Shown here piece after piece: positions 1,805 to 54,713 of a stretch of DNA of 55,201 nt (position 1 is its first letter; the number at the start of each line of letters is the position of its first letter). The translations under genes were made by a program, and so were the position numbers. The DNA lies in NCBI GenBank assembly GCA_021828055.1, contig JAKATH010000007.1, positions 1-55,201 on the forward strand. The letters run 5' to 3'. Under the pieces are notes generated by a model. The model saw only the letters and a program-made list of their open reading frames with translations, did no database searches and was not told the origin of the DNA. The stretch comes from Actinomycetes bacterium (GTDB taxonomy: Bacteria; Actinomycetota; Acidimicrobiia; Acidimicrobiales; RAAP-2).

Positions 1805-2611
1805 ATGAGCTCGCTGCCCGAGGTGGTCGTCCGGGTGCTCGGGCCCGTCGATGTGATCGGCGCCGCGCGCCCGTTTCGCCGAGCGTGGTGCCTGGAGCTC
1901 GTCGTGTACCTGGCGCTGCACCCCACGGGCGCATCCGCCGGCGCCTGGACGACGGCTCTGTGGCCCGATCAGCTCCCGCCCGCAGCGACGCGGTTCTCCA
2001 CGGCGTCCGAGGCGCGCCGTGCGCTCGGTTGTGCGTCCGACGGATCGGATCTCCTGCCGCGCGGCGTCGGCCGTCTCCGGCTCGCTGCGAGCGTGACGAC
2101 CGACTGGGTGCGATTCCAGGCGCTCGCGGCCGCGCACGGCGCGGGAGCAGCCGAGGCACGTGCCTCGGCTCTCGAGCTCGTCCGCGGCCCGCTCCTCGCG
2201 GGCTCGCGGTCCGTCGATTGGGCCGTGCTCGAAGGTCTGCACGCGGAGATGGAGCGGTCGATCGTCCAACTGGCGATCGACGTCGCTGATCACCGCCTCG
2301 CGAGAGGAGACGGCCGCGGTGCAGAGCTGGCGATTCGCCGCGGCCTCCTCGTCTCTCCCTACGACGAACGGCTCTACCGCCTGCTCTTCCTCGCCGCCGA
2401 CCTCCAGGGCAACCCCGCGGGGGTGGAGTCGGCGATGGGCGACCTCGTTCGACTCGTGTCGGGCGAGACCGCCCAGCAGCCGCACGCATCAGAAGGCAGT
2501 CCGGTCGACCCGGCCGACTGGGTGCATCCGGAGACCATGGCCGCCTACCGCTCGCTCAGCCGCCGGCCGCGGCCGTCCGCTCCGGCAGGCCGGAGACAGA
2601 GGGTGGGGTGA
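1805..2611 (+). CDS. BTAD-domain (SARP-like) regulatory protein
   Basis: A 268-residue protein. Residues ~5-100 resemble the winged-helix half of SARP regulators (VRVLGPVDVIG, then LVVYLALHPTG, ALWPDQ and ATRFSTASEARRALG). Residues ~100-235 look like the all-helical bacterial transcriptional activator domain, ending in LVSPYDERLYRLLFLAADLQGNPAGVES-type text. No ATPase or extra TPR domain follows, so it is shorter than classical SARPs. The ATG at 1805 was chosen because the domain begins right after it; upstream codons are low-complexity. The stop codon lies in the first copy of a 55-bp direct repeat. It stands at the head of the sugar/envelope cluster, and its target is unknown. DNA binding is inferred from the family. 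Confidence 0.75.
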   Translation: MSSLPEVVVRVLGPVDVIGAARPFRRAWCLELVVYLALHPTGASAGAWTTALWPDQLPPAATRFSTASEARRALGCASDGSDLLPRGVGRLRLAASVTTDWVRFQALAAAHGAGAAEARASALELVRGPLLAGSRSVDWAVLEGLHAEMERSIVQLAIDVADHRLARGDGRGAELAIRRGLLVSPYDERLYRLLFLAADLQGNPAGVESAMGDLVRLVSGETAQQPHASEGSPVDPADWVHPETMAAYRSLSRRPRPSAPAGRRQRVG

Positions 2612-2704
2612 GCCACCCGACACCGTGCGCGGCACCAGGGCCGTTCGGCTCCGCTCCGGCAGGCCGGAGACAGAGGGTGGGGTGAGCCACCCGACACCGT
2701 GCGC
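2576..2704 (+). repeat. 55-bp direct repeat, two copies, containing a gene end
   Basis: Identical 55-bp copies at 2576-2630 and 2650-2704 are separated by 19 bp. Each contains two small inverted repeats (CTCCGGC/GCCGGAG and GGGTGG/CCACCC). The first copy holds the TGA stop of the BTAD gene (2609-2611), so the gene end and its likely terminator are duplicated downstream. Confidence 0.9.
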
Positions 2705-2819
2705 CGAAGCATCGGTGACGGACGCTCCCCACCGCCAGCCCCGGCGGCCGCTTCGCGAAGCTTCGCCCGCACCGGTCGCGGGGGTCTCCCGCAGGGCTGT
2801 TGCTAAGGTCTCCCCCGCC

Positions 2820-3737
2820 ATGCCCAGGAGCTCGACGGGGAAGTGGGTCGCACGCGCCGCCTCGACCGGCGGCGGCCGCACCTATCGCGGCCAGGTGCCA
2901 ATCAACTGGTACGCGGTCCTCGTCCTGATCGTCCTGCTGGGGGTCGCCTCGGTCGTCATCTCTCGCCTCGACTACCAGCGCGGTCCGGTGGTCAACACCA
3001 TCCCTCCCTTGAAGGGCGGCACACCCTGGTACGCGGCGATCACGTTCGACGTCTGCGGCACGCAGGCGGCGCCGTTGCCGGCCAACCTGCTCAACGCGAC
3101 GACGCAGTCCTTCTACACCACCGGCAACGGGGTCATCACGATCTCTCCGAAGAAGACATCGGATGCCGGCCACGGCGCCGTGCTCGGGAAGTTCGTCTCC
3201 TCCTACTCGGGGCTCACGCTCACCGCCACACAGCTCCACATGCCCGCCTCGGCCACACCCTCCACGGGCTCCACGTCGGCCAAGAGCTCCACGTCGGCCA
3301 AGAAGGTGAAGTCCTCATCGGGTCGGACGTACCGCAACGGAGAGAAGTGCCCGTCGGGCACGAAGGACGCCGGCAAGAGGGCCGAGGTGACGGTGACCTA
3401 CTGGAAGAACGCCTTCGCGGCGAATGGCAAGCCGGTCACCGTCCAGGGGAACCCCGGGACACTGCCGTTCAGCGACGACCAGCTGATCACCGTCGGCTTC
3501 GTGCCCGCGGGAACGCGGCTGCCCAAGCCGAACGGCACGATCGTGACGGCGCTCTTCGACACCACGAGCGGCCACCCGTCGTCGACCTCCACCACCGCGC
3601 CGGGCTCGACCTCCACCACCGCGCCGGGCTCGACCTCCACCACCGCGCCGGGCTCGACCTCCACCACCGCGCCGGGCTCGACCTCCACCACCGCGCCGGG
3701 CTCGACCTCCACCTCCACCACCACGAAGGCGGGGTAG
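2820..3737 (+). CDS. Membrane-anchored extracytoplasmic protein with Ser/Thr-rich tail (unknown function)
   Basis: A 305-residue protein I do not recognise. A basic N-terminus is followed by one membrane segment (residues ~28-48, YAVLVLIVLLGVASVVI) and a presumably exported domain with two cysteines (FDVCGTQ; NGEKCPSG). A Ser/Thr/Lys-rich linker splits the domain, and the C-terminus is five copies of STSTTAPG followed by STSTTTKAG. The ATG at 2820 is the first start giving the anchor; no clear ribosome site is visible. It ends 11 bp before the nucleotidyltransferase, so co-transcription with the sugar genes is likely. The tail resembles mucin-like, wall-spanning stalks, but a surface role is inference. 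Confidence 0.7.
   Translation: MPRSSTGKWVARAASTGGGRTYRGQVPINWYAVLVLIVLLGVASVVISRLDYQRGPVVNTIPPLKGGTPWYAAITFDVCGTQAAPLPANLLNATTQSFYTTGNGVITISPKKTSDAGHGAVLGKFVSSYSGLTLTATQLHMPASATPSTGSTSAKSSTSAKKVKSSSGRTYRNGEKCPSGTKDAGKRAEVTVTYWKNAFAANGKPVTVQGNPGTLPFSDDQLITVGFVPAGTRLPKPNGTIVTALFDTTSGHPSSTSTTAPGSTSTTAPGSTSTTAPGSTSTTAPGSTSTTAPGSTSTSTTTKAG
3582..3701 (+). repeat. 24-bp in-frame tandem repeat, 5 copies
   Basis: Five identical 24-bp units starting TCGACCTCCACCACC encode STSTTAPG. The array sits at the extreme 3' end of the anchored-protein gene; a sixth, altered unit follows before the stop. Nucleotide identity between units is complete, which points to recent expansion. Confidence 0.95.
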
Positions 3738-3748
3738 GGAACGGCACC

Positions 3749-5870: not shown

Positions 5871-5906
5871 GCCCGGGGGTCAGCCCCGAGAGGAGCCCGG
5901 GGTCAG
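5871..5906. repeat. Short direct repeat over the fbiB stop
   Basis: GCCCGGGGGTCAG (5871-5883) and GCCCGGGGTCAG (5895-5906) differ by one G. The second copy includes the fbiB stop codon (TCA on this strand). The convergent gap 5833-5902 holds nothing else recognisable. Confidence 0.6.
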
Positions 5907-7633: not shown

Positions 7634-8596
7634 ATGTGGGCACTCGACCTCCTCGCCGGCTGGCCCGTGGGCGCCGCGTCGGCCGGGGTCGTCGCCGTGG
7701 GCGCCGCGTCGGCCGGGGTCGTCGCCGTGGGCGCCGCGTCGGCCGGGGTCGTCGCCGTGGGCGCCGCGTCGGCCGGGGTCGTCGCCGTGGGCGCCGCGTC
7801 GGCAGGCAGCCTCCGGCCCGGGGTCTGCGTCCTCGGCACCAGGGGCGACGCCGGCCGCACGCACGCATGGGCGTCGGTCACCAAGCTCTGCACCGCGCTG
7901 GCCGTGCTGGTCGCCGTCGAGGAGGGGACCGTCGCCCTGTCGGACCCGGCGGGGCCGCCAGGCGCCACCGTCGCGCACCTGCTCGCGCACGCGTCGGGGC
8001 TCGCCCCGGACCGGCGGGAGCCGATCGCGCCGCCAGCGACGAGGAGGATCTACTCGAACGCGGGCTACGAGGTGCTCGGCGACCTGCTCAGCGAGCGTGC
8101 GTCCATGCCCTTCTGGGAGTACGTGGAGGGAGCGGTCTTCGCTCCGCTCGGGATGACGGGCGCGCGCCTTGCCCCCGGGGCTTCCGCCGCGCACGGCGCC
8201 GAAGGGACGCTCGCGGACCTCCTCGCGCTGGGTGCCGAGCTCCTCGCACCGCGCGTCGTGGCGCCCGAGACGCTCTCCGCCGCGACGATGGTCGCCTTCC
8301 CGGGCCTCGCCGGCGTCCTGCCGGGCTTCGGGCGCCAGGATCCGAACGATTGGGGGCTCGGGTTCGAGCTCCGGGGCGCGAAGCATCCGCACTGGACCGG
8401 TTCGGCCAACAGCCCGGCGACCTTCGGGCACTTCGGGCGGTCGGGCTCCTTTCTGTGGATCGACCCCGAGGCGCGCCTCGCGTGTGCCGCGCTCTCCGAC
8501 CGCGCCTTCGGGCCGTGGGCCGCCGACGCGTGGCCCGCCCTCTCCGACGCGGTCCTCCAGACAGCCGGCGCACGTGCGGAGGGACGCCGTGGCTGA
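7634..8596 (+). CDS. Beta-lactamase-like serine hydrolase with a repeat-expanded N-terminus
   Basis: A 320-residue class C/DD-peptidase fold protein. The SxxK motif is SVTK (81-84), the YxN motif is YSN (140-142), and a HFGRSGS segment near residue 270 may serve as the third motif. No classical signal peptide is visible. Residues 12-58 are 4.6 copies of VGAASAGVVA, a Gly/Ala/Val stretch that interrupts the region where the first strands should be. Whether the protein is cytosolic or membrane-associated is unclear. The end overlaps the first GT4 gene by 8 bp, so it leads the glycosyltransferase operon. Confidence 0.75.
   Translation: MWALDLLAGWPVGAASAGVVAVGAASAGVVAVGAASAGVVAVGAASAGVVAVGAASAGSLRPGVCVLGTRGDAGRTHAWASVTKLCTALAVLVAVEEGTVALSDPAGPPGATVAHLLAHASGLAPDRREPIAPPATRRIYSNAGYEVLGDLLSERASMPFWEYVEGAVFAPLGMTGARLAPGASAAHGAEGTLADLLALGAELLAPRVVAPETLSAATMVAFPGLAGVLPGFGRQDPNDWGLGFELRGAKHPHWTGSANSPATFGHFGRSGSFLWIDPEARLACAALSDRAFGPWAADAWPALSDAVLQTAGARAEGRRG
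7667..7803 (+). repeat. 30-bp in-frame tandem repeat, 4.6 copies
   Basis: Units starting GTGGGCGCCGCGTCGGCCGG at 7667, 7697, 7727 and 7757 plus a 17-bp partial copy at 7787. All are identical and encode VGAASAGVVA within the serine hydrolase. The 30-bp period keeps the reading frame. Confidence 0.97.
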
Positions 8597-12017: not shown

Positions 12018-12917
12018 ATGCGGGCGTTGGTCACCGGTGGCCTGGGATTCGTCGGACGCTGGCTCACTGCGCATCTCAGGGACGAAGGCGACGACGTCAC
12101 CGCGGTCGACGCCGAGACGGACGTGACCGACGAGGAGGCGGTGGAGCGCGCGATGGAGGCGTCGCGGCCGGACGCCGTCTACCACCTCGCGGCGCGCGCT
12201 CACGTCGGCGAATCCTGGCGCGAGCCGCTCGACGTGCTCCGCGTCAACGTGCTCGGCACCGCGGCGGTCCTCGCGGCGGCGCGGCGCGGCGCACCGGAAG
12301 CGACCGTGCTCGTGGTGAGCTCGGCGGAGGTGTACGGCGCGCTCGCGCCGGAGGAGCTCCCCGTCGCAGAAGCCGCCCCGCTGCGTCCTTCGACGCCGTA
12401 CGCGGCGTCGAAGGCCGCAGCGGAGCAGGTCGCCATCCAAGCCTGGCTCGGCTACGGGCAGCGCGCCGTGGTCGTGCGCCCGTTCAACCACGTCGGTCCC
12501 GGGCAGGCGCGGACCTTTGCGGTGCCCGCGCTCGCACGCCGCGTGCTCGAGGCGCGCAGGGACGGGAGCCGGGAGCTGGTCGTGGGGACCGTCACGACGA
12601 GGCGCGACTTCACCGACGTGCGCGACGTCGTGCGCGCCTACCGGCTCCTCGTGGACCGGGCAGAGCCCGGAGCGGTCTACAACGTCTGCTCGGGCACCGA
12701 CGTGGCCATCGCCGACGTGGCGGCCCGGCTGATGGCCCTGGCGGGCGTGGAGCTCCGGATGGTCACGGACCCGGAGCTCGTGCGACCCGTCGACACCCCG
12801 GCGCTGCGGGGCGACCCGTCCCGGCTCGTCGCGGCGACCGGCTGGGCCCCTGCCATACCGCTGGACGAGACGCTGCTCGACGTCCTATCGGATCTCGAGC
12901 GGGGGGAGGAGGGGTGA
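12018..12917 (+). CDS. GDP-6-deoxy-D-mannose reductase-like SDR
   Basis: A 299-residue extended SDR with GGLGFVG (7-13), YHLAARAHVGESW, VVSSAEVYG (catalytic Ser ~101) and Tyr128/Lys132 in TPYAASK. The segment RPFNHVGPGQ...FAVPALARRV and the later VGTVTTRRDFTDVRDVVRAY are characteristic of GDP-4-keto-6-deoxymannose reductases (Rmd) and GDP-mannose 4,6-dehydratase relatives. Together with the ManC-like enzyme this suggests a GDP-rhamnose or related deoxy-sugar. It starts 11 bp after the third GT4. Its last 27 bp are repeated downstream of the stop. Confidence 0.8.
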   Translation: MRALVTGGLGFVGRWLTAHLRDEGDDVTAVDAETDVTDEEAVERAMEASRPDAVYHLAARAHVGESWREPLDVLRVNVLGTAAVLAAARRGAPEATVLVVSSAEVYGALAPEELPVAEAAPLRPSTPYAASKAAAEQVAIQAWLGYGQRAVVVRPFNHVGPGQARTFAVPALARRVLEARRDGSRELVVGTVTTRRDFTDVRDVVRAYRLLVDRAEPGAVYNVCSGTDVAIADVAARLMALAGVELRMVTDPELVRPVDTPALRGDPSRLVAATGWAPAIPLDETLLDVLSDLERGEEG

Positions 12918-12975
12918 GCCCGGACCCGACCCGTCGCCCGATCGCGTGTCGGATCTCGAGCGGGGGGAGGAGGGG
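12888..12975 (+). repeat. 27-bp direct repeat flanking the Rmd-like gene stop
   Basis: Perfect copies at 12888-12914 (the last codons, immediately before the TGA) and 12949-12975 (intergenic), period 61 bp. They begin TCGGATCTCGAGCGGGGGGA. The gene 3' end has been copied into the convergent gap before 12999. Confidence 0.92.
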
Positions 12976-16500: not shown

Positions 16501-16885
16501 CAGCGGTCTCACGGTCTTCGAGAACACGGCCTTCACCGCCAGAGCACGCAGCCCGTCGGTGACCCTGGCACGTAGCGGCGGCATCGCCGGGGTGCTCGAC
16601 CCACTGGGTGCTGCGCTGGAGCTGCTCGCGTGGGTGGTCGTGGCCGCCGCGCTCCTGGGCCGGCGACGGTGGCTCGACTGGTGGTGGGGGCCTGCGGCGC
16701 GTGCCCGCAGGAGACGGCGTGCGCCGCACGATCGGCCCGCCGAGGGAGAGGTCCGGACGTCCCCCTCGGCGAGCGGGTGGCTCGACGCGCGGGCGGGGTC
16801 GATCTCGGAGCTCGCCGGCGCACCCCTCGCGGACACCGCCGTCCAGGCCGAGCGGCCCGGCCGAGACGACGGGGGGGACGGGTGA
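13532..16885 (+). CDS. Giant GT2 glycosyltransferase fused to a polytopic membrane domain
   Basis: A 1117-residue protein. Residues ~10-270 form a GT2 (GT-A) domain: VVAILVTTDPGPWFEETLQALAAQDYSNLSVLVL, LLLHDDCAPSPDAV as the DxD-like site near 110, and MGEDLDLSWRAHVAG as the acceptor ED motif. After a linker, residues ~430-985 contain about ten hydrophobic spans (VVAYLVAALVIVVGSRALI onward), then an extracytoplasmic segment and a last span near 1030. Similar fusions stand next to DUF5719 genes in the actinobacterial fbiAB/manB region. The protein probably transfers a sugar at the membrane. It carries a run of AAAVAP repeats near residues 584-609, and its 3' end is part of a 33-bp duplication. 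Start ATG 13532. Confidence 0.8.
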   Translation: MTEGSASAARAPAVVAILVTTDPGPWFEETLQALAAQDYSNLSVLVLVAGGSSDPTEVVARGLPEAFVRRLPESEGFAAAVDEALWMVEGASFFLLLHDDCAPSPDAVHLMVEESFRSNAGIVCPKMVHWDEPRALLHVGQSIDKTGAVIERVQAGEIDAGQHDAVRDVFVAPGGCTLVRGDLFRALGGYDAAIVAMGEDLDLSWRAHVAGARVVVAPSATARHLGLVAAGRRPPPPSDAPSLQALQRRHELAAVLTCYSWGHLVRVVPQALLLSLGEAVVARLAGDRRRARAVVHAWRWNLARWRELRSRRAALAAVRVVSDAEVRSLQVRGSARLSTYVSRLTHQGLEVAHGLRPSRPPDALPPELPQPRGSGAGAELTDSIGLGFDDDAGFDALDDLGRRGRRTRETGPAGVFVSRRPRVVAYLVAALVIVVGSRALIGSSLPLVGQFAPFPAWTDLWHQFFSSWQPAGTGSHAPASPAYGFLALAGTVLLGRSGLLQQLAVFACFPLGAWGMSRLLRPFRSAPGRLAATLAYLALPLAVDALGRGRWDGLVAYGATPWVVLQLARATGLEPFGPPAAAPATAVVGAAAVAPAAAVAPATAVAPAADLAVTEPTTPTSTWRRHLGGRLLVLGAIEAVAMSFAPAMVVVVLLVGLGLACGSLVAGGARQGARALVVASGGTLVAAVLCTPWVVGTLLAGRGALSVLGLAGDPASAPGWGGLLRMAVGPVGGSPLAWLLPGAAVCALLLARNGRLAWTIRLWAVALPAWFLALVAVKGWAVPFAPSVDVLLAPAAVAVAAAAGLGVAAFETDLAGYRFGWRQGLAVLSVAVLAVGVLPTVAEAADGRWGLPSSGYRGAVGFPAWRKGSPGYRVLWLGDPRALPSGSWAIGPGLAYATSTDGTPTLLDLWPPASPGGAGGIAPALRVAMRGETVQLGRALTAARIRYVVAVAALAPRSPGSPPTSTYPLPSGLVAALARQAQLRTVPVSPSGLTVFENTAFTARARSPSVTLARSGGIAGVLDPLGAALELLAWVVVAAALLGRRRWLDWWWGPAARARRRRRAPHDRPAEGEVRTSPSASGWLDARAGSISELAGAPLADTAVQAERPGRDDGGDG
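15281..15358 (+). repeat. 18-bp in-frame tandem repeat, 4.3 copies
   Basis: Units at 15281, 15299, 15317 and 15335 of the form GCC(G/A)CCGCAGTCGCGCCC, with a 6-bp remnant to 15358. They encode A(A/T)AVAP in a loop between membrane spans of the giant GT2. Confidence 0.92.
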
Positions 16886-16947
16886 CGGCCGCTGCCGTCC
16901 GCCGGAAGGGACGGGTGACGGCCGCTGCCGTCCGCCGGAGGGACGGC
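16882..16947 (+). repeat. 33-bp tandem duplication of a stop/start junction
   Basis: Copies 16882-16914 and 16915-16947 differ by about one base and begin GTGACGGCCGCTGCCGTCCG. Each contains the GTGA overlap that ends the GT2 gene and starts the DUF5719 gene; the period keeps frame. Confidence 0.93.
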
Positions 16948-18529: not shown

Positions 18530-20884
18530 CTAACCCTGGCCGCTCGACGAGCTGCCGTCGTGTGGAGCGTCGGGCTGCTCCTGCGGGCCTGGAACCTGCG
18601 GGCCTGGAACCTGCGGGCCTGGAACCTGCGGGCCTGGAACCTGCGGGCCTGGAACCTGCGGGCCTGGAACCTGCGGGCCTGGACGGGGCGGCGCGGAGCC
18701 CGGGGGACCAGGTGGCACCCAGCGCCCCGGCGGCGACGGCCACTGCAGCGGCCACTGGCCACCTTGTGGCGAGGGTGGCGTCCCCTGCACCCACCCCGGC
18801 CCCTGGGGAGAGGGCGGCGGCCAACCCGCCGGCGGCGCCGGGTGCGGCCCGGGGACAGCCGCGGCAGCAGGCGCGCGCCCGCGCAGCGCCGCCGCCCCGG
18901 CGACCCGACCACCGGGCGGGAGGGCACCGGCGGGCTCGTGCCCGTTCGACCCATTGGCGCCGTTCGTCTTCGCTCCGTTCGACCCGTTCACGTCGAACTG
19001 GACCGTCCTCGCCTTGCGGCCATCGGTGTGCACCGGCCGCCCGTAGGCCTCGTCGACCAGGCGACCGACCTCGCCGCCGCCGATGCTCTCCTGCTCGAGC
19101 AGCGCCTGTGCAACCTTGTCCAGCCCGTCCCGGTGGCGGGTGAGGAGCTCGATCGCGCGCTCCTCTTGGGTGCGAAGGATCCGCTCGACCTCGTCGTCGA
19201 TGACCCGGCTCGTGTCCTCGGAGTAGTCGCGGGTGTGCATGAGGTCCTCTCCCAAGAAGACCTGTCCCTGCGAGCCCCAAGCCATCGGGCCGATCTCTTC
19301 GCTCATGCCCCACTCGCGCACCATCTTCCGGGCGAGCTCGGTGTTGCCCACCAGGTCGTTGGCAGCGCCGGTCGAGAGGTCGCCGTAGACGAGCATCTCG
19401 GCGACGCGGCCGCCCATGCGCACGCAAAGGGAGTCCTCGATGTTGGCCCGCGGGTAAATGTGGCGCTCCTCGACGGGAAGCTGCATGGTGACGCCGAGCG
19501 CCATGCCGGTGGGCAGGATCGTCACCTTGTGCACGGGATCGGCGTGCTCCAGGACGTAGGCGAGCACCGCGTGGCCGCCCTCGTGGTACGCGACACGCTC
19601 CTTCTCCTCGTCGGAGAGGACGAGGCTCTCACGTCGTTGCCCCATGAGGACGCGATCGCGGGCAGACTCGAAGTCCGCCATCTCGATCGTCGCGCTCCCG
19701 CGCCGCACGGCGTGGAGGGCCGCCTCGTTGACCAGGTTGGCCAGGTCCGCCCCGCTCATCCCCGGCGTGCCGCGGGCCACCACGTCGAGGTCGACGTCGG
19801 GAGCGATCCGCTTGCCGCGGCAGTGCACCTGGAGGATGGGCAGCCGCTCCTCGAGGTCGGGAAGGGGCACGACGATCTGGCGGTCGAAGCGCCCGGGGCG
19901 CAGCAGGGCGGGATCCAGGATGTCCGGCCGGTTGGTGGCGGCGATGATCACGACGCCCTCCGCCGGGTCGAACCCGTCCATCTCGCTCAGCATCTGGTTC
20001 AACGTCTGCTCGCGCTCGTCATGGCCCCCGCCGAGCCCGGCGCCGCGCTTGCGACCGATCGAGTCGATCTCGTCCACAAAAATGATGGCCGGCGCTTGCT
20101 TGCGCGCCGTCTGGAAGAGGTCGCGGACGCGGCTTGCCCCCACGCCGACGAACATCTCCATGAAGTCCGAGCCGCTGACGGAGAGGAACGGAACCCCGGC
20201 CTCTCCGGCGACTGCACGCGCGAGCAGCGTCTTGCCGGTCCCCGGCGGGCCGACCAGGAGGACGCCTTTCGGGATCTTGGCCCCGATGTCGCGGAAGCGT
20301 GCGGGAGTCCGGAGGAAGTCGACGACCTCGCTGATCTCCTGTTTGACGCCGTTGTAGCCGGCCACGTCCTGGAACGTGGTGGTCGGGCGGTCACTGCTGA
20401 AGAGCCGAGCCTTGGAGCGCCCGATCGACATGATGCCCGACATCTGCCCGCGGGCTTGGCGGCTGATGAACAGCATCAGCACCAGGGCGATCCCGATGAA
20501 CAGGATGTAGGGGAACAGGTCGCCCAAGATGTTCGAAGGCGGGTTCGAGAACGTGACCGCCACCGCGTCCCTGCGCATGAGGTCGACTGTCTGCTGGCTC
20601 GCCGGGTGCGGGCCGCTGACCGAGTACGACTGCCCTGTGCCGAGCTTCCCGGTGATCACGCCGGTTGTGTTGTTGATTGTGGCGGTCTTGACGCTCCTCG
20701 CCTCGACCTCGTTGCGGAACTGGTTGTAGTTCATCGACTTCGCGGAGCTGTGGGGCAGGAGCGAAGGGACGATGAGCACGGCGAGGACCGCCAGAATGAG
20801 GATCCCCCAGATCCAACGCCAGCTCTGGTCCGGTCCTTGACCTGGAGAACGCTGCGGAGTGTTGTCGGGCCGTTGCTGGCTCAC
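18530..20884 (-). CDS. ftsH: ATP-dependent zinc metalloprotease FtsH
   Basis: A 784-residue membrane AAA+ protease. Membrane spans are at ~25-43 and ~120-140. The AAA module has Walker A GPPGTGKT (212-219), Walker B IIFVDEID (267-274), the pore loop FVGVG and second region of homology [19 protein letters not shown]. The zinc site is HEGGH (434-438), with the third ligand expected in the [13 protein letters not shown] region. It degrades membrane and short-lived soluble proteins. After ~residue 630 comes a disordered Asn/Gly then Pro/Gly-rich tail ending in seven PGPQV-type repeats; this tail is longer than in most FtsH proteins. It is divergent from the CPBP protease gene. Confidence 0.97.
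18585..18683 (-). repeat. 15-bp in-frame tandem repeat, 6.6 copies
   Basis: Six identical units GGGCCTGGAACCTGC (plus strand) from 18585 to 18674 plus 9 bp of a seventh. They encode PGPQV in the C-terminal tail of FtsH, about 45 bp before the stop. Confidence 0.97.
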
Positions 20885-21010: not shown

Positions 21011-22429
21011 ATGGCCCGCCACGGCGAGACCGAGCCGGGCTCGGCTGAGCCGAACGGGGATCCGCCTTCCGAGACGACGACACCTGCGCCCGACTGGTCG
21101 CAGGCCCGCGTCGCGTCACCGTCGTCGACAGCGCCGCCTGCGCCAGCCTCCCCGAGCGTGCCCGACGACCCACGCCTGACGGAGCCCCTGGCGTCGGATC
21201 CCACGCCTTCTTCGTACCCGCCGCCCCCGCCGGGATACCCGCCGCCCGGGACGTACCCGCCGCCCGGGGCATACCCGCCGCCCCCGCCGGGGTACCCGCC
21301 GCCCGGGACGTACCCGCCGCCCGGGGCATACCCGCCGCCCCCGCCGGGGTACCCGCCGCCCGGGACGTACCCGCCGCCCGGGGCATACCCGCCGCCCCCG
21401 CCGGGGTACCCGCCGCCCGGGTCGTACCCGCCGCCCGGGTCGTACCCGCCTCAGCCGGGGTACCCGCCGCCCCCGCCGGGGTACCCGCCGCCCGGGTCGT
21501 ACCCGCCGCCCGGGTCGTACCCGCCCCCGCCGGGGTACCCGCCGCCCGGGGAAGGTAGCGGCGACCCCCGCCGCTCGGCACCGCTCGGAGAGCTGCAGCC
21601 TCTGGACGGCTGGTCCGGCCCGCCCGCCCAGGACGGCCACCGGTTCTTCGACAGCCCAGAGGTGCCGCCTGCAACGAAGGGGGCCGCCGGCTTCTGGCTC
21701 GTCATGGGGCTCCTCGGGTTCGCCGTCGGCCAGGTGGTCGGCGCGGTCTTCGTCGCCATCGCCGGCGCCGCCGCCGGTGAGGGCGGCCAGCTGGCGAAGT
21801 TCGCCACGATGGCCGAGCCGCCGGAGTGGTATGTCGGCACGTCGCTCGTCGGTCTCTGGATCGGGTTCCTCGCGGGCCCGTGGGCCGCGAGCAAGATACG
21901 GGGGACGGGCCGGTTCCTCCGCGACCTAGGCGTCCGGTTCCGCCTCGTCGACCTTGCGGGCATCCTCGTCGGCGTCGGCGGTCAGCTGGTGCTCGACGCC
22001 CTCTACGCGCCGTTCCTCCCGAAGCTGAAGCACTTCACAGCACCGACCCAGAAGCTCGTGGGCGCGTCGCACGGATGGGGCTACCTCGTCATCGCGGTCC
22101 TCACGGTCTGCGGCGCCCCGTTCTTCGAGGAGATCCTGTTCCGGGGGCTTGCGTTCAAAGCGCTCGCGCGCCTCTTCGCGCCGTCGACGCGAGGGCCCAC
22201 TCGCCGGAGAGCGATCGGGGTCGTCGCCGCGGTGGTCGTGGACGGCGTCCTGTTCGGACTCGCCCATTGGGAGCTGTACCAGTTCGCCGGGCTCGCCGTC
22301 TTCGGGATGCTGCTGGCGGTCGTGACCTACAAGACGGGCCGCCTCGGGATGAACATGGTCGCGCATGCCTCGTTCAACCTCGTCGCCGTGCTCGCGATCC
22401 TCGCCACCTCCAGCAGTGTCGTTCACTGA
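21011..22429 (+). CDS. CPBP family intramembrane metalloprotease with proline-rich N-terminus
   Basis: A 472-residue protein. Residues ~68-180 are a Tyr/Pro/Gly-rich low-complexity region built from YPPPPPGYPPPGTYPPPGA units. About seven membrane spans follow from ~225. The Abi/CPBP motifs are present: EEILFRG (373-379), FGLAHW (~418) and NMVAHASFN near the C-terminus, supplying the Glu/His metal ligands. The family includes type II CAAX-prenyl-protease-like and bacteriocin-immunity proteins; substrate here is unknown. Start ATG 21011 lies 126 bp from the divergent ftsH start. The proline-rich segment resembles those of actinobacterial membrane proteins that may form clusters or bind partners. 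Confidence 0.85.
   Translation: MARHGETEPGSAEPNGDPPSETTTPAPDWSQARVASPSSTAPPAPASPSVPDDPRLTEPLASDPTPSSYPPPPPGYPPPGTYPPPGAYPPPPPGYPPPGTYPPPGAYPPPPPGYPPPGTYPPPGAYPPPPPGYPPPGSYPPPGSYPPQPGYPPPPPGYPPPGSYPPPGSYPPPPGYPPPGEGSGDPRRSAPLGELQPLDGWSGPPAQDGHRFFDSPEVPPATKGAAGFWLVMGLLGFAVGQVVGAVFVAIAGAAAGEGGQLAKFATMAEPPEWYVGTSLVGLWIGFLAGPWAASKIRGTGRFLRDLGVRFRLVDLAGILVGVGGQLVLDALYAPFLPKLKHFTAPTQKLVGASHGWGYLVIAVLTVCGAPFFEEILFRGLAFKALARLFAPSTRGPTRRRAIGVVAAVVVDGVLFGLAHWELYQFAGLAVFGMLLAVVTYKTGRLGMNMVAHASFNLVAVLAILATSSSVVH
21215..21550 (+). repeat. 57-bp in-frame repeats of the Tyr/Pro-rich region
   Basis: Three near-identical 57-bp units at 21215, 21272 and 21329, a fourth variant at 21386 (GS in place of GT/GA), then shorter YPPPG permutations to about 21550. 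The hierarchical structure (15-bp YPPPG inside 57-bp units) indicates repeated rounds of tandem duplication. Confidence 0.93.
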
Positions 22430-28676: not shown

Positions 28677-28780
28677 CCGGCGCCCGGCCAGGGGGAACCA
28701 GCCCGGCGCCCGGCCAGGGGGAACCAGCCCGGCGCCCGGCCAGGCGGAGCCGGCCCGGCGCCCGGCCAGGCGGAGCCGGC
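28677..28780. repeat. 26-bp tandem array, 4 copies, between convergent genes
   Basis: Four 26-bp units at 28677, 28703, 28729 and 28755 begin CCGGCGCCCGGCCAGG. The first two end GGGAACCAGC and the last two CGGAGCCGGC. The array fills the 116-bp gap between the YceH and thiolase stops. Units are rich in self-complementary GC, so they may work as a bidirectional terminator. Confidence 0.93.
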
Positions 28781-28786
28781 CCGGGA

Positions 28787-29992: not shown

Positions 29993-30064
29993 TCGACACC
30001 TCTCCTCGTTCTCAGGGACCGTAAAGGGGGCTCGGAGCCACGATCCAGATCGGGTGTTCCCCTT

Positions 30065-30206
30065 CCGGATCCACCCCGGTCGTGCTTCCGGATCCACCCC
30101 GGTCGTGCTTCCGGATCCACCCCGGTCGTGCTTCCGGATCCACCCCGGTCGTGCTTCCGGATCCACCCCGGTCGTGCTTCCGGATCCACCCCGGTCGTGC
30201 TTCCGG
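30065..30206. repeat. 23-bp tandem array, 6 copies, in a divergent promoter region
   Basis: Six identical 23-bp units starting CCGGATCCACCCCGGTCG at 30065, 30088, 30111, 30134, 30157 and 30180, plus 4 bp. It lies between the divergent thiolase (start 29992) and ABC ATPase (start 30308). There are no spacers, so it is not a CRISPR array. It could tile binding sites (each unit has a GGATCC palindrome) or simply be a recent expansion. Confidence 0.96.
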
Positions 30207-32418: not shown

Positions 32419-32439
32419 TTCTTCGGCAAGACCGACTAG
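32398..32439. repeat. 21-bp tandem duplication of a gene end
   Basis: TTCTTCGGCAAGACCGACTA plus G occurs at 32398-32418 and 32419-32439. Copy 1 ends with the permease TAG. The CTAG in copy 2 (32436-32439) contains the moaC stop on the other strand. Confidence 0.96.
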
Positions 32440-33877: not shown

Positions 33878-33950
33878 GGGAGACGGAGCCTCACGGCGCT
33901 GACCGTACCAGCGGCCCTATCGGCGGCCGCGCCAGAGCCGCAGCCACCGG

Positions 33951-34070
33951 AGGCCCGGCCCCTCGCCCGGAGGCCCGGCCCCTCGCCCGGAGGCCCGGCC
34001 CCTCGCCCGGAGGCCCGGCCCCTCGCCCGGGCGCCGGCTCATTGCCCGGGCGCCGGCTCATTGCCCGGGG
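33951..34070. repeat. Two adjoining tandem arrays (20 bp x4 and 19 bp x2.4) at a gene end
   Basis: Four identical units AGGCCCGGCCCCTCGCCCGG span 33951-34030. They run into units GCCCGGGCGCCGGCTCATT at 34025-34043 and 34044-34062, with a remnant to 34070. The TCA in the second 19-bp unit (34058-34060) is the stop of the DUF6457 gene, and the first unit carries a copy of it. Confidence 0.94.
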
Positions 34071-34318
34071 CCGAGCGTCGCCGCGAGCCGTTCGGCCGCA
34101 GCTCTCGCCTCCCTGGGCGGCGCTCCTGCCCGCCCTGCGAGCCAGGTGGACAGCGGAGCCGCGGTGCGCTCCGACGCGTGCGCGGCCACGCCGGCGATGG
34201 CCAGAAGGTCCTCTACCTCGTCGTCGGTCGGAGGAGTCGCGCCGAGCGCCTCGGCGAAGCGGCGAACCCACTCGGCGGCGGAGGGCTTGGAGCCGGGATC
34301 CCCGGGTGCAGTGGTCAC
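34058..34318 (-). CDS. DUF6457-like small protein
   Basis: An 86-residue acidic helical protein: SAAEWVRRFAEALGATPPTDDEVEDLLAIAGVAAHASERTAAPLSTWLAGRAGA. This is the pattern of DUF6457 proteins found next to, or fused with, MobA in actinomycetes. With fdhD and moaC beside it, a role in molybdenum cofactor or molybdoenzyme maturation is likely, although the biochemistry is unknown. GTG start at 34318. The stop lies in a 19-bp tandem duplication. Confidence 0.75.
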   Translation of the reverse strand: MTTAPGDPGSKPSAAEWVRRFAEALGATPPTDDEVEDLLAIAGVAAHASERTAAPLSTWLAGRAGAPPREARAAAERLAATLGPGQ

Positions 34319-36119: not shown

Positions 36120-37388
36120 GTGGTGCTCTCCCGGCAACAGGCTCCCGCGCTCCAGAGCCCCCGTGTTCACCCTGCCGGCAGCCTGGCGGACCGGACCGAC
36201 CGGCCTCTCGCGACCGCTGCGGCCGCCGCCGTCGCCGGGACGCTCTTCGTCCTCGTGCGGCTCCTCGTCGCGACGAAGGGCGACATCAGCCGGTTCGTGA
36301 TGGCCGGGCGTGACTTCGTGAACGCAACCAGCGCGCCGAAGGGGCTCTACGTCTTCCCAGGCTCGGGCTACGACGGGCAGTTCTACTACCGGCTCGCGCT
36401 CGATCCCGTGGACCTCGCCAAGACGGCGTTCGGCATCACCGTCGACGCGGGGTTCCGGTTTCAGCGCATCGGCATGTCGGCGCTCGCCTGGCTCGCGTCA
36501 GGGGGGCAGCACCAGGTGGTGCCCGAGGCCCTGGTGGCGGTCAACCTCGCCGCGCTCGTGGCCCTCGCCTGGCTCGGCGCGCTGATCGCGCACGACGCGG
36601 GCCGCCATGCCGGCTGGGGGCTCCTCGTCGCGGGGTACTGGGGCTTCCTCTTCAGCATCGGGCGGGATCTGCCCGAGGTGCTCGCAAGCTGCTTCCTGGT
36701 CGGGGGGCTCGTCGCGCTCCGCAGGGCACGCCCGGTGCTCGCAAGCTGCTTCCTGGTCGGGGGGCTCGTCGCGCTCCGCAGGGCACGCCCGGTGCTCGCA
36801 GGTCTCGTCCTCTCGTGTGCGGTGCTCACGCTGGAGACGACCCTCGACGTCGTCATCGCCGTCGGGGTGGTCGCGCTGGTCCAGATCCTCCGCCGCACCC
36901 GCCGCCCCGGGGTGCAGGACCTGGCTTGGGTGATGCCAGGGCTTGCGTTCGCCGGGTGGCAGGTCACCGGGCTCGCGATGACCGGTGCCCTGCCCATGCG
37001 CTCCGACACGGGGGACAACCTCGGCGTACCGGCCGTGAACATGGTCGGTGCAGTCGTTCACTTCCTCACCCACATCACCTCGGCTTCGTCGCTCCTGTGG
37101 CTCGCCGAGCTCACCGTGCTCGGGATCGTGACCCTCTTCGCGGCATGGTCGCTGCCGCGCTCCAGAGTGCCGTCGTGGGAGAAGACGGCGTGGGTTGTCG
37201 CGTCGCTCGTCGCGGTCTCGCTCGCGCGGGGCGTGTGGTACGGGCATGCCACATTCCGCGGCTTCGAGGACGTCTACCTCCTGTCCACCATCGTCCTCAT
37301 CGGCTCACGCCATCGCCTGTGGCTGCCGGCGGCGCTGGTCGCTGTGGCGTGGGCCGTGACCTTCGCGCACCACGTGGTCGACCTCTGA
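36120..37388 (+). CDS. Polytopic membrane protein, GT-C-like, with a duplicated membrane helix
   Basis: A 422-residue protein starting at GTG 36120. About nine hydrophobic spans begin at ~38. The first extracytoplasmic loop contains YVFPGSGYDGQFYYRLALDPVDL, a pattern seen in uncharacterised GT-C-fold membrane proteins of actinomycetes. Residues ~187-224 contain LASCFLVGGLVALRRARPV twice in a row, giving an extra hydrophobic segment followed by RRAR. Enzymatic function is unknown. It is divergent from the acyl-CoA synthetase and convergent with the riboflavin synthase gene. Confidence 0.7.
   Translation: MVLSRQQAPALQSPRVHPAGSLADRTDRPLATAAAAAVAGTLFVLVRLLVATKGDISRFVMAGRDFVNATSAPKGLYVFPGSGYDGQFYYRLALDPVDLAKTAFGITVDAGFRFQRIGMSALAWLASGGQHQVVPEALVAVNLAALVALAWLGALIAHDAGRHAGWGLLVAGYWGFLFSIGRDLPEVLASCFLVGGLVALRRARPVLASCFLVGGLVALRRARPVLAGLVLSCAVLTLETTLDVVIAVGVVALVQILRRTRRPGVQDLAWVMPGLAFAGWQVTGLAMTGALPMRSDTGDNLGVPAVNMVGAVVHFLTHITSASSLLWLAELTVLGIVTLFAAWSLPRSRVPSWEKTAWVVASLVAVSLARGVWYGHATFRGFEDVYLLSTIVLIGSRHRLWLPAALVAVAWAVTFAHHVVDL
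36678..36791 (+). repeat. 57-bp in-frame tandem duplication of one membrane segment
   Basis: Identical 57-bp units at 36678-36734 and 36735-36791, beginning GTGCTCGCAAGCTGCTTCCT, plus a few bases of a third. They encode 19 residues forming one hydrophobic stretch and its positive flank. Confidence 0.96.
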
Positions 37389-37471
37389 CGGCCTGCCCCC
37401 CGGGCTCGGCGGCCTGCGCCCCTCGGGCTCGACGGCCTGCGCCCCGGGCTCGACGGCCTGCGCCCCTCGGG
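37383..37471. repeat. 21-23-bp tandem array, 4 copies, at a convergent junction
   Basis: Four variants of CTCGACGGCCTGCGCCCC(T)CGGG start at 37383, 37405, 37428 and 37449. The first contains the stop of the membrane-protein gene (CTCTGACGG), so the array starts at the gene end and fills the gap to the riboflavin synthase stop. Confidence 0.9.
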
Positions 37472-37480
37472 CTCGGCCCT

Positions 37481-38084: not shown

Positions 38085-38169
38085 CCGCCGCGCTCGGCCC
38101 AGCCCGCGCGCTCGGCCCAGCCCGCGCGCTCGGCCCAGCCCGCGCGCTCGGCCCAGCCCGCGCGCTCGG
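38085..38169. repeat. 18-bp tandem array, ~4.7 copies, in an otherwise empty gap
   Basis: Units AGCCCGCGCGCTCGGCCC repeat from 38101 with partial copies on both sides. It lies in the 345-bp gap (37964-38308) between the divergent riboflavin synthase and MptB-like genes. Apart from the array I see only a short A-rich patch (GGCAAAAATGG, ~38291-38301) before the MptB-like start. Confidence 0.93.
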
Positions 38170-38308
38170 CCGGCGGTCGCGGCCGGCCCCGGTGGCGGAC
38201 GGGCGCCGCAAAGGCTCCTCCGGCCCCAGCCCGCGGCCTTCGCCCGGGGAGCACGGGGCGAGGTCGTTGCTGGCATGGAGCCTCTGCATTCGGCAAAAAT
38301 GGGCCGCC

Positions 38309-45974: not shown

Positions 45975-46225
45975 GTGCAGGTCCTTTCCGTAGTGGAGGG
46001 CGTCGGCGTCGACATGAGAAGGCAATGCAACCACGTGGTGCACCTATCGGAGATCGCCCCCGGGTGGATGCAGAAGGCTCGACAGCCGACACGGGACGGC
46101 ACCCGCGTCGTGGGACGGACCTCGACCGCGCGGCACCCCTGGTCTGCGCGTCGCGGCGAAACCCCGCATTCAAGGGTCTGGCAACGATCCGCAATCGCGG
46201 GAGTGCCGAGGGCAGGACGTCCGCA

Positions 46226-46321
46226 GGACTCACGTCACTCGCCGCCGCAGGACTCACGTCACTCGCCGCCGCAGGACTCACGCCACTCGCCGCCGCAGGA
46301 CTCACGTCACTCGCCGCCGCA
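46226..46321. repeat. 24-bp tandem array, 4 copies, containing a stop codon
   Basis: Units GGACTCACGTCACTCGCCGC(CGCA) at 46226, 46250, 46274 (one mismatch) and 46298. The last overlaps the stop codon (TCA at 46302-46304) of the ABC remnant, so that gene end is present four times. The rest of the gap 45975-46225 shows no gene. Confidence 0.94.
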
Positions 46322-47359: not shown

Positions 47360-47365
47360 AGGTAA

Positions 47366-47486: not shown

Positions 47487-47519
47487 GACGCGAATCCGAC
47501 GCGAATCCGACGTGAATCC
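47487..47519. repeat. 11-bp tandem repeat, 3 copies
   Basis: GACGCGAATCC at 47487 and 47498 and GACGTGAATCC at 47509. It is located between the GntR promoter and the imuA promoter, in the 202-bp divergent gap. Confidence 0.85.
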
Positions 47520-52500: not shown

Positions 52501-52782
52501 TCGTCTTCTTCCAAGGTGGTCGTGGCCGGGGTGGTGACCCACCGCCAGCAGCCCGAGACCGCGCGCGGCGCGGTCTTCTTGAACTTGGAGGACGAGACCG
52601 GGATGGTGAACGTCGTGTGCTCGAAGGGGGCGTGGGCGCGCTGGCGTGCCGTTGCGAGGACCTCGCCCGCGTTGATCGTGAAGGGGCGCCTGGAACGCGC
52701 GCAGGGGGCGGTCAACGTCGTGGCCGAGCGATTCGAACCGGTCACGCTCGGGCCGGTGCCCGGGTCCCGCGACTTCCGTTGA
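49570..52782 (+). CDS. dnaE2: Error-prone DNA polymerase DnaE2 (ImuC)
   Basis: A 1070-residue C-family polymerase of normal DnaE2 length. The PHP domain starts AELHCHSNFSFLDGAS with LTDHNGLYG. The palm has PDIDLDIE (catalytic Asp413/415) and a third acidic residue in KFDLLGLGML (~552). RPGPIQG and GVPLFQEQLMQIAVDVAGF are polymerase-family blocks, and an OB domain closes the protein (VVVAGVVTHRQQPETARGAVFLNLEDETGMVNVV). It performs SOS translesion synthesis with ImuA/ImuB. A 24-bp duplication lengthens the linker before the OB domain (DGPLDG repeats). ATG 49570 lies 44 bp after imuB. The region around its stop codon is repeated downstream. Confidence 0.95.
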   Translation: MRPTTPYAELHCHSNFSFLDGASHPEELAAAGAALGLCALALTDHNGLYGVVRFSEAARRAGLPTVFGAELTYGPASDHAPAPDRVGEPDPGGRHLVVLARDPQGYARLSRTIADSGLAGAELGGGKGRPALTLAALAGAHEGHWQVLTGCRKGPVAAALTEEGPRAARRRLDELVAAFGRDNVAVELWDHGDPLDSTRNDALAQLAVHAGCALVATNDVHYASPARFPLATALAAVRSRRRLEELCGWLPASAAACLRTGGEQERRFARWPGAVEQAAEIGAACAFDLRLVAPRLPDFPVPPGHDEDSWLRHLVEEGAIRRYGARGSERVEGAWERLDHELSVIATLGYAGYFLTVWDIVEQCRRTGVYCQGRGSAATSAVCYVLGITLVDAVSLGLLFERFLSPARDGPPDIDLDIESTRREEIIQYVYERYGRRHAAQVANVVTYRPRSALRDMGRALGCDAADVDRWAKQTDRTDALSERADVPVMLRRLAAEVLDFPRHLGIHSGGMVICDRPVVDVCPVEPARMPARTVLQWDKDDCATAGLVKFDLLGLGMLEALHHMVDLVAEHYGVAVDLAALPREDEVYDLLCRADTVGVFQVESRAQMGTLPRVQPRCFYDLAIEIALVRPGPIQGHAVHPYIRRRRGEEPVTYLHPLLEPALRRTLGVPLFQEQLMQIAVDVAGFTPSDADELRQAMSHKRSDERMGALRERLFAGMAARGVPGDVAQKVYESLSAFANFGFPESHSLSFASLVYASAWMKLHYPAAFTAGLLNAQPMGFWSPQSLLADAKRHGISVLRPDVNVGRAGAAPVGAAALRLGLSSVRFVGKETAGRLVDGQPWASQEDLVRRGGLNRAQLEALALAGALDGLRDGPLDGRRDGPLDGPPDASGRRALVWTAGAAAQAAPGRLPGVVTGAAAPALPPRSAAEEVRDDLWSIGVTPERTAIELARPELTRRGVATIAQAVGSAPSLSSSSSSSKVVVAGVVTHRQQPETARGAVFLNLEDETGMVNVVCSKGAWARWRAVARTSPALIVKGRLERAQGAVNVVAERFEPVTLGPVPGSRDFR
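52183..52230 (+). repeat. 24-bp in-frame tandem duplication in dnaE2
   Basis: Two units at 52183-52206 and 52207-52230 end CGACGGGCCCCTTGACGGG (first two bases vary) and encode (L/R)RDGPLDG in the linker after the helix-hairpin-helix region. Confidence 0.88.
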
Positions 52783-52950
52783 GGGCTCCAGCGAGGGCTC
52801 CAGCGGGTGACGGCCTCAGTTGCGGGTCCCGCGACCTCCGTTGAGGGCTCCAGCGAGGGCTCCAGCGAGGGCTCCAGCGGGTGATGGCCTCAGTTGCGGG
52901 TCCCGCGACCTCCGTTGAGGGCTCCAGCGGGTGGTGGCCTCAGTTGCGGG
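52762..52950. repeat. Nested tandem repeat spanning two convergent gene ends
   Basis: GGGTCCCGCGAC recurs at 52762, 52824 and 52898, and GGGTCC again at 52948 (spacings 62, 74 and 50 bp). Inside each interval a 12-bp unit GAGGGCTCCAGC is present 2, 3 and 1 times, and 50 + 12 x (n-1) explains every spacing. The first interval starts in the last codons of dnaE2, and the last ends in the stop region of the opposing gene. Confidence 0.93.
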
Positions 52951-53377: not shown

Positions 53378-54038
53378 AGCCCATAACTCTACACGTTCAT
53401 GCGGAGTTTCGCCGCATCCTCTCATAGATGCTGGCGAAGAGCTACGGGCGAGCATTGTGCCTCCTCAGGACGGATCCCACCCCTGGCGGATCCGCGTGGG
53501 GACAAGGCTGCCGAGCACGCATTGGGTGCCGCCTGCCTCGTCGTCGACGTCCTTTGTGCTCGACAGGGTCATCCCGAATCCAGGACGTGCGCCACGGCGG
53601 GACGGGGGGAACCCGATGCCCGCGTCATCATCCCTTGTCATCGGCCCCGGGCGAGGGATGCCCGAGAGCACCTTCCCCAATCACGTTGAGCCCTTTCCTC
53701 CTATGGACGGCCGCGGCCTTGCGCCTCAACGTGAAGTCGGCTCCCATGCTTGCGTGAACACCGGCGACCACCTGGTGGATCTGCCGCCCGCCAGAGCAGC
53801 GCAGCCACTTGGCTGCGTACGCGACTGCATCCCTAGCCCTGCGAGCATCATGCGATCGCCGATTTCGAGGTGTCATGACGAGCGAATTTCGAAGCGGCTG
53901 GACGCACCAGCTTGCCACCGCTCCCAAGATGCACGGTGAAGGTCTGGGAATGGCCAGGTCAACCATCCGTCAGCCAGCGAGCGACGCGCCCCTCGGCCCA
54001 TCACGGGGCTCTGGAGCCGTGCCCGTCTGATTGTGGAC
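53378..54038. other. Atypical non-coding stretch, possibly decayed DNA
   Basis: This ~660-bp region appears lower in GC than its surroundings and lacks the strong third-position GC bias. Several short overlapping frames occur on both strands (for example 53628-53966 minus), but none has a recognisable motif or start signal. A small hairpin ATGCGG/CCGCAT (53399-53417) lies at its left end. It may be a decayed mobile element or an untranslated region. Confidence 0.4.
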
Positions 54039-54137
54039 CCCCGCCGTTGGGCAGGAGGAGGATCCCCGCCGCTGGGCAGGAGGAGGATCCCCGCCGTTGG
54101 GCAGGGGGAGGATCCCCGCCGTTGGGCAGGAGGAGGA
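54039..54137. repeat. 25-bp tandem array, 4 copies
   Basis: Units CCCCGCCG(T/C)TGGGCAGG(A/G)GG... at 54039, 54064, 54089 and 54114 (the last lacks one base). They lie upstream of the CsaA-like gene. The rest of 54138-54357 shows no gene. Confidence 0.93.
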
Positions 54138-54357
54138 CGTCCGGGTCCGACCGGGCGTACGTCACGATGCGCCGGATCCCCCGGCGATCGTGCGAGCTCC
54201 GGCGCGTCCGGGAAGATGCGCCTTGCCGCGCGGGCGCGCTGCGTGAGCGCGCGTTGCCGGCGTGGTCTTGCTCGCAAGAGCGCCCGTCGCTCCGCGCCGC
54301 TCCGCGCACGGGAGAGCGTGGTCAGCACGCTGGGCCGGCTCCTAGGCTCTCCTCTCC

Positions 54358-54684
54358 ATGATCGAGTGGGACGACTTCGCGAAGGTGGACGTGCGGGTCG
54401 GGCGGATCGTGGAGGTGCTGGACTTCCCTGAGGCACGAAAGCCCGCGTGGAAGCTCCGGATCGACTTCGGTCCGGAGATCGGGGAGAAGCGCTCTTCCGC
54501 CCAGATCACGAACTATGCGAGAGAGGACCTCGTGGGAAGGCTCGTGCTCGCGGTCGTCAACTTCCCGCCGCGCCAGATCGGCCCGTTCCGCTCCGAGGTG
54601 CTGACGCTGGGCACCTATCGCGGAGATGCCGTGCTGCTGGTCGATCCCGACGCGGCTGCACAGCCGGGAGACAGGCTGGGCTGA
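54358..54684 (+). CDS. csaA: CsaA-like tRNA-binding-domain protein
   Basis: A 108-residue single OB-fold protein: WDDFAKVDVRVGRIVEVLDFPEARKPAWKLRIDFGPEIGEKRSSAQITNYAREDLVGRLVLAVVNFPPRQIGPFRSEVLTLG. Length and blocks match CsaA, a dimeric secretion-related chaperone with the EMAP-II/tRNA-binding fold. Start ATG 54358 lacks a clear Shine-Dalgarno. Its TGA lies in a 16-bp repeat. It appears monocistronic. Confidence 0.9.
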   Translation: MIEWDDFAKVDVRVGRIVEVLDFPEARKPAWKLRIDFGPEIGEKRSSAQITNYAREDLVGRLVLAVVNFPPRQIGPFRSEVLTLGTYRGDAVLLVDPDAAAQPGDRLG

Positions 54685-54713
54685 TCAGACCGTTGATGCT
54701 GATCAGACCATTG
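54680..54713. repeat. 16-bp direct repeat at the csaA stop
   Basis: GCTGATCAGACCGTTG (54680-54695) and GCTGATCAGACCATTG (54698-54713), period 18. Copy 1 contains the csaA TGA (54682-54684). Confidence 0.85.

Follow-up and report, generated by a model that had tools for sequence, protein, structure and literature searches.

Short tandem duplications over stop codons, between genes and within reading frames of a GC-rich actinobacterial contig

Tandem arrays at gene junctions are known from mycobacteria, where MIRU-VNTR loci (mycobacterial interspersed repetitive units, variable-number tandem repeats) in some cases overlap stop and start codons, and where the MIRUs form one dispersed family of related sequences. 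Here we describe short direct repeats in what we call the window, a stretch of 55,201 nucleotides that is the entire contig JAKATH010000007.1 (C123 in our numbering) of the Actinomycetes draft genome GCA_021828055.1. Unlike MIRUs, the repeat units are mostly unrelated, as the original prediction for this contig had stated: in an all-against-all blastn comparison of 125 arrays of the source genome with a period of at least 15, 109 match no other, and related units at many loci, the mark of a dispersed family such as REP or MITE, were absent. The remaining 16 arrays make up nine pairs at E<=1e-3; the two members of one pair are identical and lie 170 bp apart, and the others show 74-84% identity or match over 16 bases.

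Two further systems are close to what is seen here. The tandem repeats of Borgs, giant linear archaeal extrachromosomal elements, are described in excerpts of PMC9879509 as recent, independently arisen and flanked by partial repeats; some may begin in the end of an open reading frame (ORF), all repeats within Borg ORFs are divisible by three, and perfect arrays average 46 per 829 kb (0.62%), with a range of 0.29-1.02% of the genome (its Table 1). The second system is that of minisatellites and close direct repeats in bacteria (PMC4060949, PMC2884548); the excerpts of PMC2884548 report repeats, mostly <30 bp, on the flanks of 10-18% of short variable segments, and propose slippage on short homology, often with deletion, for such segments in other bacteria. 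Among the matches listed, and as far as their excerpts go, neither tandem repeats of this lineage nor, in general terms, duplications at the stop codons of bacteria were the subject of a paper.

The source genome (G000) is a draft of 2.64 Mb in 154 contigs, 84% complete, and is most likely a metagenome-assembled genome (MAG). Its window genes are bacterial, their order is shared with relatives recorded as Acidimicrobiales or Actinomycetes MAGs, and the nearest dnaE2 genes among named relatives come from Acidimicrobiales or "Actinomycetes" MAGs. The search set holds one genome per species: 13 species of the genus (G000 and 12 others), 25 genomes of the family (f1, G000-G024) and 16 genomes of the order, 41 in all (G000-G040). 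Arrays were called with Tandem Repeats Finder (TRF) and by direct inspection, the criteria for the window being a period of at least 10, a match of at least 85% and a score of at least 50. Genes were called with a home-made codon-usage caller, which missed the DUF6457 gene (34058-34318, minus strand), and domains were named after Pfam.

Recent local duplications in the window

The original prediction had listed eleven gene ends whose stop codon lies inside or directly against a short direct repeat of perfect or nearly perfect identity. A repeat is present at ten of them and is tandem at eight; the fbiB repeat is weak, and those at the BTAD and Rmd-like genes are spaced. At every confirmed site the stop codon does lie inside or against the repeat according to the gene calls, and identity is perfect or nearly so in many arrays, although not in all. 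TRF recovered the arrays of GT2, SIS, the permease, DUF6457, the membrane protein, the "ABC remnant" and dnaE2, while the BTAD, Rmd and csaA repeats were recovered by direct inspection. Pfam backs the BTAD, F420 ligase, GDP-mannose dehydratase, glycosyltransferase 2, bact-PGI_C/SIS, ABC-2 permease and tRNA-binding domain assignments, as well as DUF6457 and the DnaE-type polymerase; the "ABC remnant" and membrane-protein genes have no Pfam match.

The window holds 26 arrays, while Markov shuffles of order 2, 3 and 5 (20 for every order) gave means of 0.8, 0.95 and 0.9 (maximum 3); head-to-tail units of 10-100 bp are thus above chance, as in minisatellites. The window is also a local high: at the rate seen elsewhere in the sampled genome it would hold 14.6 arrays instead of 26 (Poisson P 0.004), and it has seven stop-touching arrays per 42 stops against 16 per 377 stops outside it, so that it overstates the genome-wide rate.

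Two sister species of the genus allow the sites to be compared before and after duplication. G009 is syntenic with window positions 7.4-55.1 kb in long blocks of 84-93% identity, and G008 with positions 28.8-54.9 kb at 82-93%. Fifteen of the 26 window arrays have well-aligned flanks in G009 (seven are poorly aligned and four have no flanks); eight of these differ by exact whole units, six having no array in G009 and two being arrays in both genomes, and one is of equal length. Against G008 eight of the 26 could be judged, and three differ by exact whole units. In the reverse direction, the 25 arrays of G009 compared with the window gave six differences of exact units, ten of another kind, one equal length and eight cases that were not judged. 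Since sisters at about 90% identity are single-copy at several sites and differ by exact whole units, the duplications are recent and local, in agreement with the earlier claim of independent, recent, local events. Arrays of the two genomes also coincide in position: of 19 G009 arrays, 8 fall where the window has one too, and class-matched placement would give 3.4 (7 of 1000 placements were as high); at least two of the eight share their unit by descent, as judged by eye, and hot spots are not proved by this count.

To examine the joints, clean two-copy exact duplications with a period of 18-150 were collected from 829 kb of sequence of the source genome and its genus. Extra matching sequence of at least 4 bp is present in 26 of 39, compared with 5.2% of random sites of the same offset, and the mean number of extra matching bases is about 7 at the joints and 1.3 at random sites; before cleaning, extra homology was found in 62 of 85 duplications. 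This homology points to slippage on short homologies rather than to end joining.

We consider it probable that the arrays are short tandem duplications (minisatellites) produced by slipped-strand misalignment and then sorted by selection; what we infer here is the slippage step, the share that selection has in the outcome and the contribution of GC content. During DNA synthesis, the new strand would detach and re-pair with a short direct repeat tens of bases back, and the intervening stretch would be copied again to give a tandem duplication; with two copies present, further slippage could gain or lose units. Very GC-rich DNA would supply many short homologies for this process, and duplications would arise genome-wide, with selection sorting the survivors.

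Several observations weigh against this account. Differences that are not of whole units were found for 6 of the 15 well-flanked arrays in the comparison with G009 and for five of the eight judged against G008, so that array histories are often compound. Extra homology is lacking altogether at five of the 39 clean duplications, and slippage between repeats therefore does not fit every case. The spaced repeats of BTAD and Rmd require an extra step beyond slippage; their 19-bp and 34-bp spacers have no 14- or 16-base match elsewhere in the window and 40 stretches of the source genome. Array density rises with GC content (Spearman 0.51 over 144 loci, which are not independent by descent), but five loci of GC 0.74-0.80 average 1.47 arrays per 10 kb, below loci of GC 0.70-0.74, and some GC-rich loci hold no arrays; GC alone does not predict array density. 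The gene calls are home-made, and arrays that exceed a short read may have been collapsed. The account does not extend to the excess of perfect arrays of at least three units that the genus shows over GC-rich loci of other genera.

Perfect arrays in the genus

The original prediction of a lineage-specific process is supported in part, for one class of arrays and not for the whole. On stretches of selected contigs, which are not random whole-genome draws, TRF arrays occur at 2.86 per 10 kb in the source genome; the other genus members have 2.14 (191 in 894 kb), close to the 1.80 of other genera with GC of at least 0.70 (98 in 544 kb, 27 loci); family plus order have 0.76, and those stretches are less GC-rich. 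Frankia (4.30) and Actinoplanes solisilvae (3.88) reach such densities at single loci, and two-copy duplications look ordinary for GC-rich actinobacteria. Perfect arrays, defined as in the Borg paper (PMC9879509) by at least 50 nt and at least three units, are by comparison enriched: the source genome has 33 in 529 kb (0.51% of sequence), the other genus members 32 in 894 kb, the family 5 in 636 kb, and 26 loci of GC at least 0.70 from other genera 4 in 520 kb. Relative to the last group, the source genome is 8-fold (p 1e-6) and the rest of the genus 4.7-fold enriched (p 8e-4). The excess of the source genome holds when the window is set aside (26 in 473 kb, p 1e-5), also against MAGs alone (2 in 312 kb, p 2e-4), and 20 Markov copies of the window contained no perfect array.

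By the same criterion, the density of perfect arrays in the source genome lies inside the range of Borgs, and, as with the ORF repeats of Borgs, all 29 perfect coding arrays have a period divisible by three (16 of 36 others do). Unlike Borg repeats, which are A-enriched, these arrays have an A content of 13.6% in coding arrays against 13.7% outside (gene strand) and 11.3% in noncoding arrays against 14.6% outside (plus strand as fetched); they lie on a GC-rich bacterial chromosome, their rate is uneven within the genus, and Borgs were curated against reads while this draft was not. Compared with bacterial minisatellites and close direct repeats, as excerpted from PMC4060949 and PMC2884548, what sets these sequences apart is that perfect multi-unit arrays are denser than in GC-rich loci of other genera.

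A lineage-specific process like that of Borgs, in which a change of replication or repair in the genus makes and expands perfect arrays, would account for this excess, and we regard it as a possible, though less likely, alternative to slippage and selection. At least about five perfect arrays per 100 kb occur in 5 of the 13 genus species (G000, G009, G005, G012 and G006), with four in the 26 kb of G006; on the other side, none occur in G003 (46 kb), G001 (45 kb) or G011 (40 kb), and the rest of the genus exceeds family members of GC at least 0.70 only 2.1-fold (p 0.22). Two family members, G014 (3.12) and G023 (2.77 TRF arrays per 10 kb), are as dense as the genus, while 10 of the 12 other family genera sampled have less than one. 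The more specific proposal, that several genus species carry perfect arrays at Borg density across the chromosome through a genus-level change of replication or repair, which would make expanding multi-unit arrays out of ordinary two-copy duplications and so continually rewrite gene tails and linkers, is more doubtful still.

Of the repair genes searched for, none is missing from the genus but found in its family; MutL, LigD, PolA and RecA were not searched, and absence from incomplete drafts is weak evidence. NucS was over the cut-off in none of the 25 family genomes (one weak match, in G016) and in 9 of 16 order genomes, and MutS domain I was found in none of the 41. The RecJ model matched none of the 41 genomes, although 13 of 14 control genomes match it (8 over the cut-off). 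The ExoVII large subunit was found in 38 of 41 genomes, Ku in 26, and SbcD over the cut-off in 13, of which 7 are among the 13 genomes of the genus and 2 among the other 12 of the family. A full or near-full match to the RecG model was found in 37 of 41 genomes (20 over the 659-bit cut-off), with RecG of G025 in two pieces and no full-length match in G006, G011 and G032. The 11 RecG matches of the genus score 604-653 bits, all under the cut-off, which 6 of the other 12 family genomes exceed; as the genus proteins are full-length, we read this as divergence and not as loss.

The family as a whole thus appears to be without mismatch repair, as neither NucS nor MutS domain I was detected in its 25 genomes (MutL was not searched); such absences are reported for Coriobacteriia in excerpts of PMC5290159. 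As a cause of the excess this lack was rejected, because the whole family shares it and most other family genera are array-poor.

The mechanism of the arrays is of a known kind, and the excess of perfect multi-unit arrays in the genus is the part worth following. If it holds on long reads, this would be a bacterial chromosome at the density that made Borgs notable, and a family in which NucS and MutS were not detected would offer a way to study how such arrays are ordinarily kept in check.

Placement around genes and reading frame

Array positions were compared with uniform expectation in 81 loci of the source genome and its genus (1.13 Mb, 279 arrays). Coding sequence holds 124 arrays (217.8 expected), stop codons 35 (17.6), start codons 10 (12.6) and intergenic regions 110 (31.0), so that arrays are 3.5 times as frequent as expected between genes, twice at stops and fewer than expected in coding sequence. 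The same layout was found in 27 loci of other genera with GC of at least 0.70 (stop 13 against 4.5, intergenic 35 against 10.8). Stops also exceed starts, by 35 to 10 (p 0.009 against an expected ratio of 1.39; source genome alone p 0.037, rest of the genus p 0.14) and in the other genera by 13 to 0 (p 0.0004), and in 829 kb intergenic density is highest between converging genes (16.7 per 10 kb, against 12.6 for co-directional and 8.7 for diverging genes).

These figures would fit a process that targets gene 3' ends for duplication, where terminator hairpins or stalled or colliding polymerases could act, but other observations make it very unlikely. When only arrays touching noncoding DNA are considered, 35 of 155 reach a stop (0.23, against 0.29 expected from random placement), and in the other genera 13 of 48 do (0.27 against 0.24, p 0.34); between co-directional genes, arrays are spread from stop to start (14, 16, 18 and 10). 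As single strands, the units fold no more strongly than matched controls do (p 0.52), which leaves hairpin-driven stalling unsupported. Gene 3' ends are permissive and not targeted: the tolerance at gene junctions put forward in the original prediction is borne out, and a preference for 3' ends is not. Equal repeat density at stop codons and elsewhere, and in other high-GC genomes, had been named as what would speak against that prediction, and this is in part what was found, the layout being the same in other genera.

With slippage followed by selection, the distribution would have the following origin. Intergenic duplications would mostly survive; those spanning a stop would survive where the first copy usually keeps the stop and extra copies lie outside the protein; within genes nearly only in-frame duplications would persist, and at gene starts few. 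The period is divisible by three in 121 of 124 coding arrays, compared with 67 of 155 others. In 23 of 27 strictly stop-overlapping arrays the stop ends within the first unit, so that the protein end is mostly untouched, a count that is partly automatic, given that translation halts at the first stop. Together with the unduplicated sister sites and the joint homology, this selection on reading frame makes the arrays a natural record of how duplications are made and filtered.

Fill-in of staggered breaks during end-joining repair by Ku and LigD could also create duplications, and the five clean joints without homology, together with the finding of Ku in 26 of the 41 genomes, the array-rich G006 among them, would agree with it. 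This origin is nevertheless improbable: homology is present at most clean joints, the array-rich G009, G008, G005 and G012 have no Ku match (in drafts that are incomplete), and the Ku locus of the source genome matches in pieces only. An assembly artefact of a low-coverage metagenome is scarcely credible: the strongest argument is that coding arrays keep the frame, unlike what is expected of artefacts, and other genomes hold the same array at a different copy number (SIS) or in one copy, even though the source is a 154-contig draft, one array site of G008 consists of a run of N, k-mer coverage is about 1.5 to 6.9 in records matched to other genus members, and arrays at contig ends (4 of 58, against 87 of 2900 interior pieces) differ little and are too few to judge.

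The Ku locus of the source genome (L204, G000:C139, ~3734-4218) matches the Ku model in pieces only. No gene is called there, and two arrays lie within it, one of 15 bp x 3.5 (4008-4059), the other of 19 bp x 3.1 (4090-4147). A frame-breaking array in a decayed Ku gene fits relaxed selection.

Repeats of the window

Table 1. Direct repeats of the window, the genes they touch and the corresponding sites in the sister species (window coordinates)
Feature	Position	Strand	Repeat	Gene context	Sister species
BTAD spaced repeat	2576..2704	+	two exact 55-bp copies, offset 74, 19-bp spacer; not tandem	stop in copy 1; BTAD-domain gene 1805-2611 (Pfam BTAD)	one copy in G008; unlike insert in G009
In-frame array	3582..3713	+	24 bp x 5.5, perfect; region 132 bp		75 bp in G008, 138 bp in G009
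fbiB weak repeat	5871..5906	-	imperfect 12-13 bp match, by eye; no exact run of at least 10	stop of F420-0 gamma-glutamyl ligase gene (fbiB) 5903-6634, - (Pfam F420_ligase)	
In-frame array	7665..7803	+	30 bp x 4.6, perfect	gene with Pfam Beta-lactamase domain	different 24-bp array nearby in G009
Rmd spaced repeat	12888..12975	+	two exact 27-bp copies, offset 61, 34-bp spacer containing TGA	end of Rmd-like / GDP-mannose-dehydratase gene 12018-12917, + (Pfam)	
GT2 array	16875..16946	+	33 bp x 2.2	spans stop 16883-16885 of glycosyltransferase family 2 gene	one copy in G009, which is shorter by exactly 33 bp; G008 contig ends before site
In-frame array	18580..18683	-	15 bp x 6.9, perfect	near C-terminus of FtsH-like gene 18530-20779	
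Proline-rich in-frame array	21215..21551	+	57 bp x 6	gene with Pfam Rce1-like domain	array of other period in G009
SIS array	27911..27955	+	17 bp x 2.6	over stop 27932-27934 of SIS/bact-PGI_C gene	like 17-bp unit x 3.9 in G009, longer by exactly one unit
Array	28677..28784	+	26 bp x 4.2	between converging genes, touches a stop	different array (13 bp) in G009
Intergenic array	30062..30206		23 bp x 6.3, perfect		34 bp x 2 in G009; shorter in G008
Permease duplication	32390..32439	+	21 bp	contains TAG stop 32416-32418 of ABC-2 permease gene	single copy in G009 and G008, each exactly 21 bp shorter
Adjoining arrays	33947..34073 (second 34025-34073)	-	20 bp x 4.2; 19 bp x 2.6	second contains DUF6457 stop	19 bp x 3.8 in G009; run of N in G008
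In-frame duplication	36677..36800	+	57 bp		one copy in both G009 and G008, each shorter by exactly 57 bp
Nested duplications	37387..37475	+	44/21 bp	begin at stop 37386-37388 of putative membrane protein gene	65 bp shorter in G009 and G008; can be read as 44 + 21
Intergenic array	38089..38171		18 bp x 4.6, perfect; similar to two other arrays of the source genome, ~84% over 31-37 bases		fewer by exactly three units in both G009 and G008
"ABC remnant" array	46221..46321	-	24 bp x 4.2	over stop of ORF 46302-46832 (putative)	no flank match in G009 or G008
Intergenic array	47487..47519		11 bp x 3		exactly two units fewer in G009
dnaE2 array	52761..52929	+	74 bp x 2, internal 12-bp repeats	over stop 52780-52782 of dnaE2-like gene	far shorter in G009 and G008, not by whole units
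csaA duplication	54680..54713	+	18 bp, first 12 bases exact	over stop of tRNA-binding-domain (csaA-like) gene 54358-54684	one copy in both G009 and G008

Three of these sites show further features. The run of N in G008 (contig C33), at the site orthologous to window 33947-34073, may be an unresolved longer array. The SIS unit contains both TGA, the stop of the upstream gene, and ATG, and each additional copy shifts the frame yet keeps the stop-start junction. The Rmd-like gene of G009 has at its end a 24-bp x 3.5 array (C288, 5490-5574) that is open in frame as judged by eye; comparison of this end with that of the window suggests that gene tails may diverge through successive duplications.

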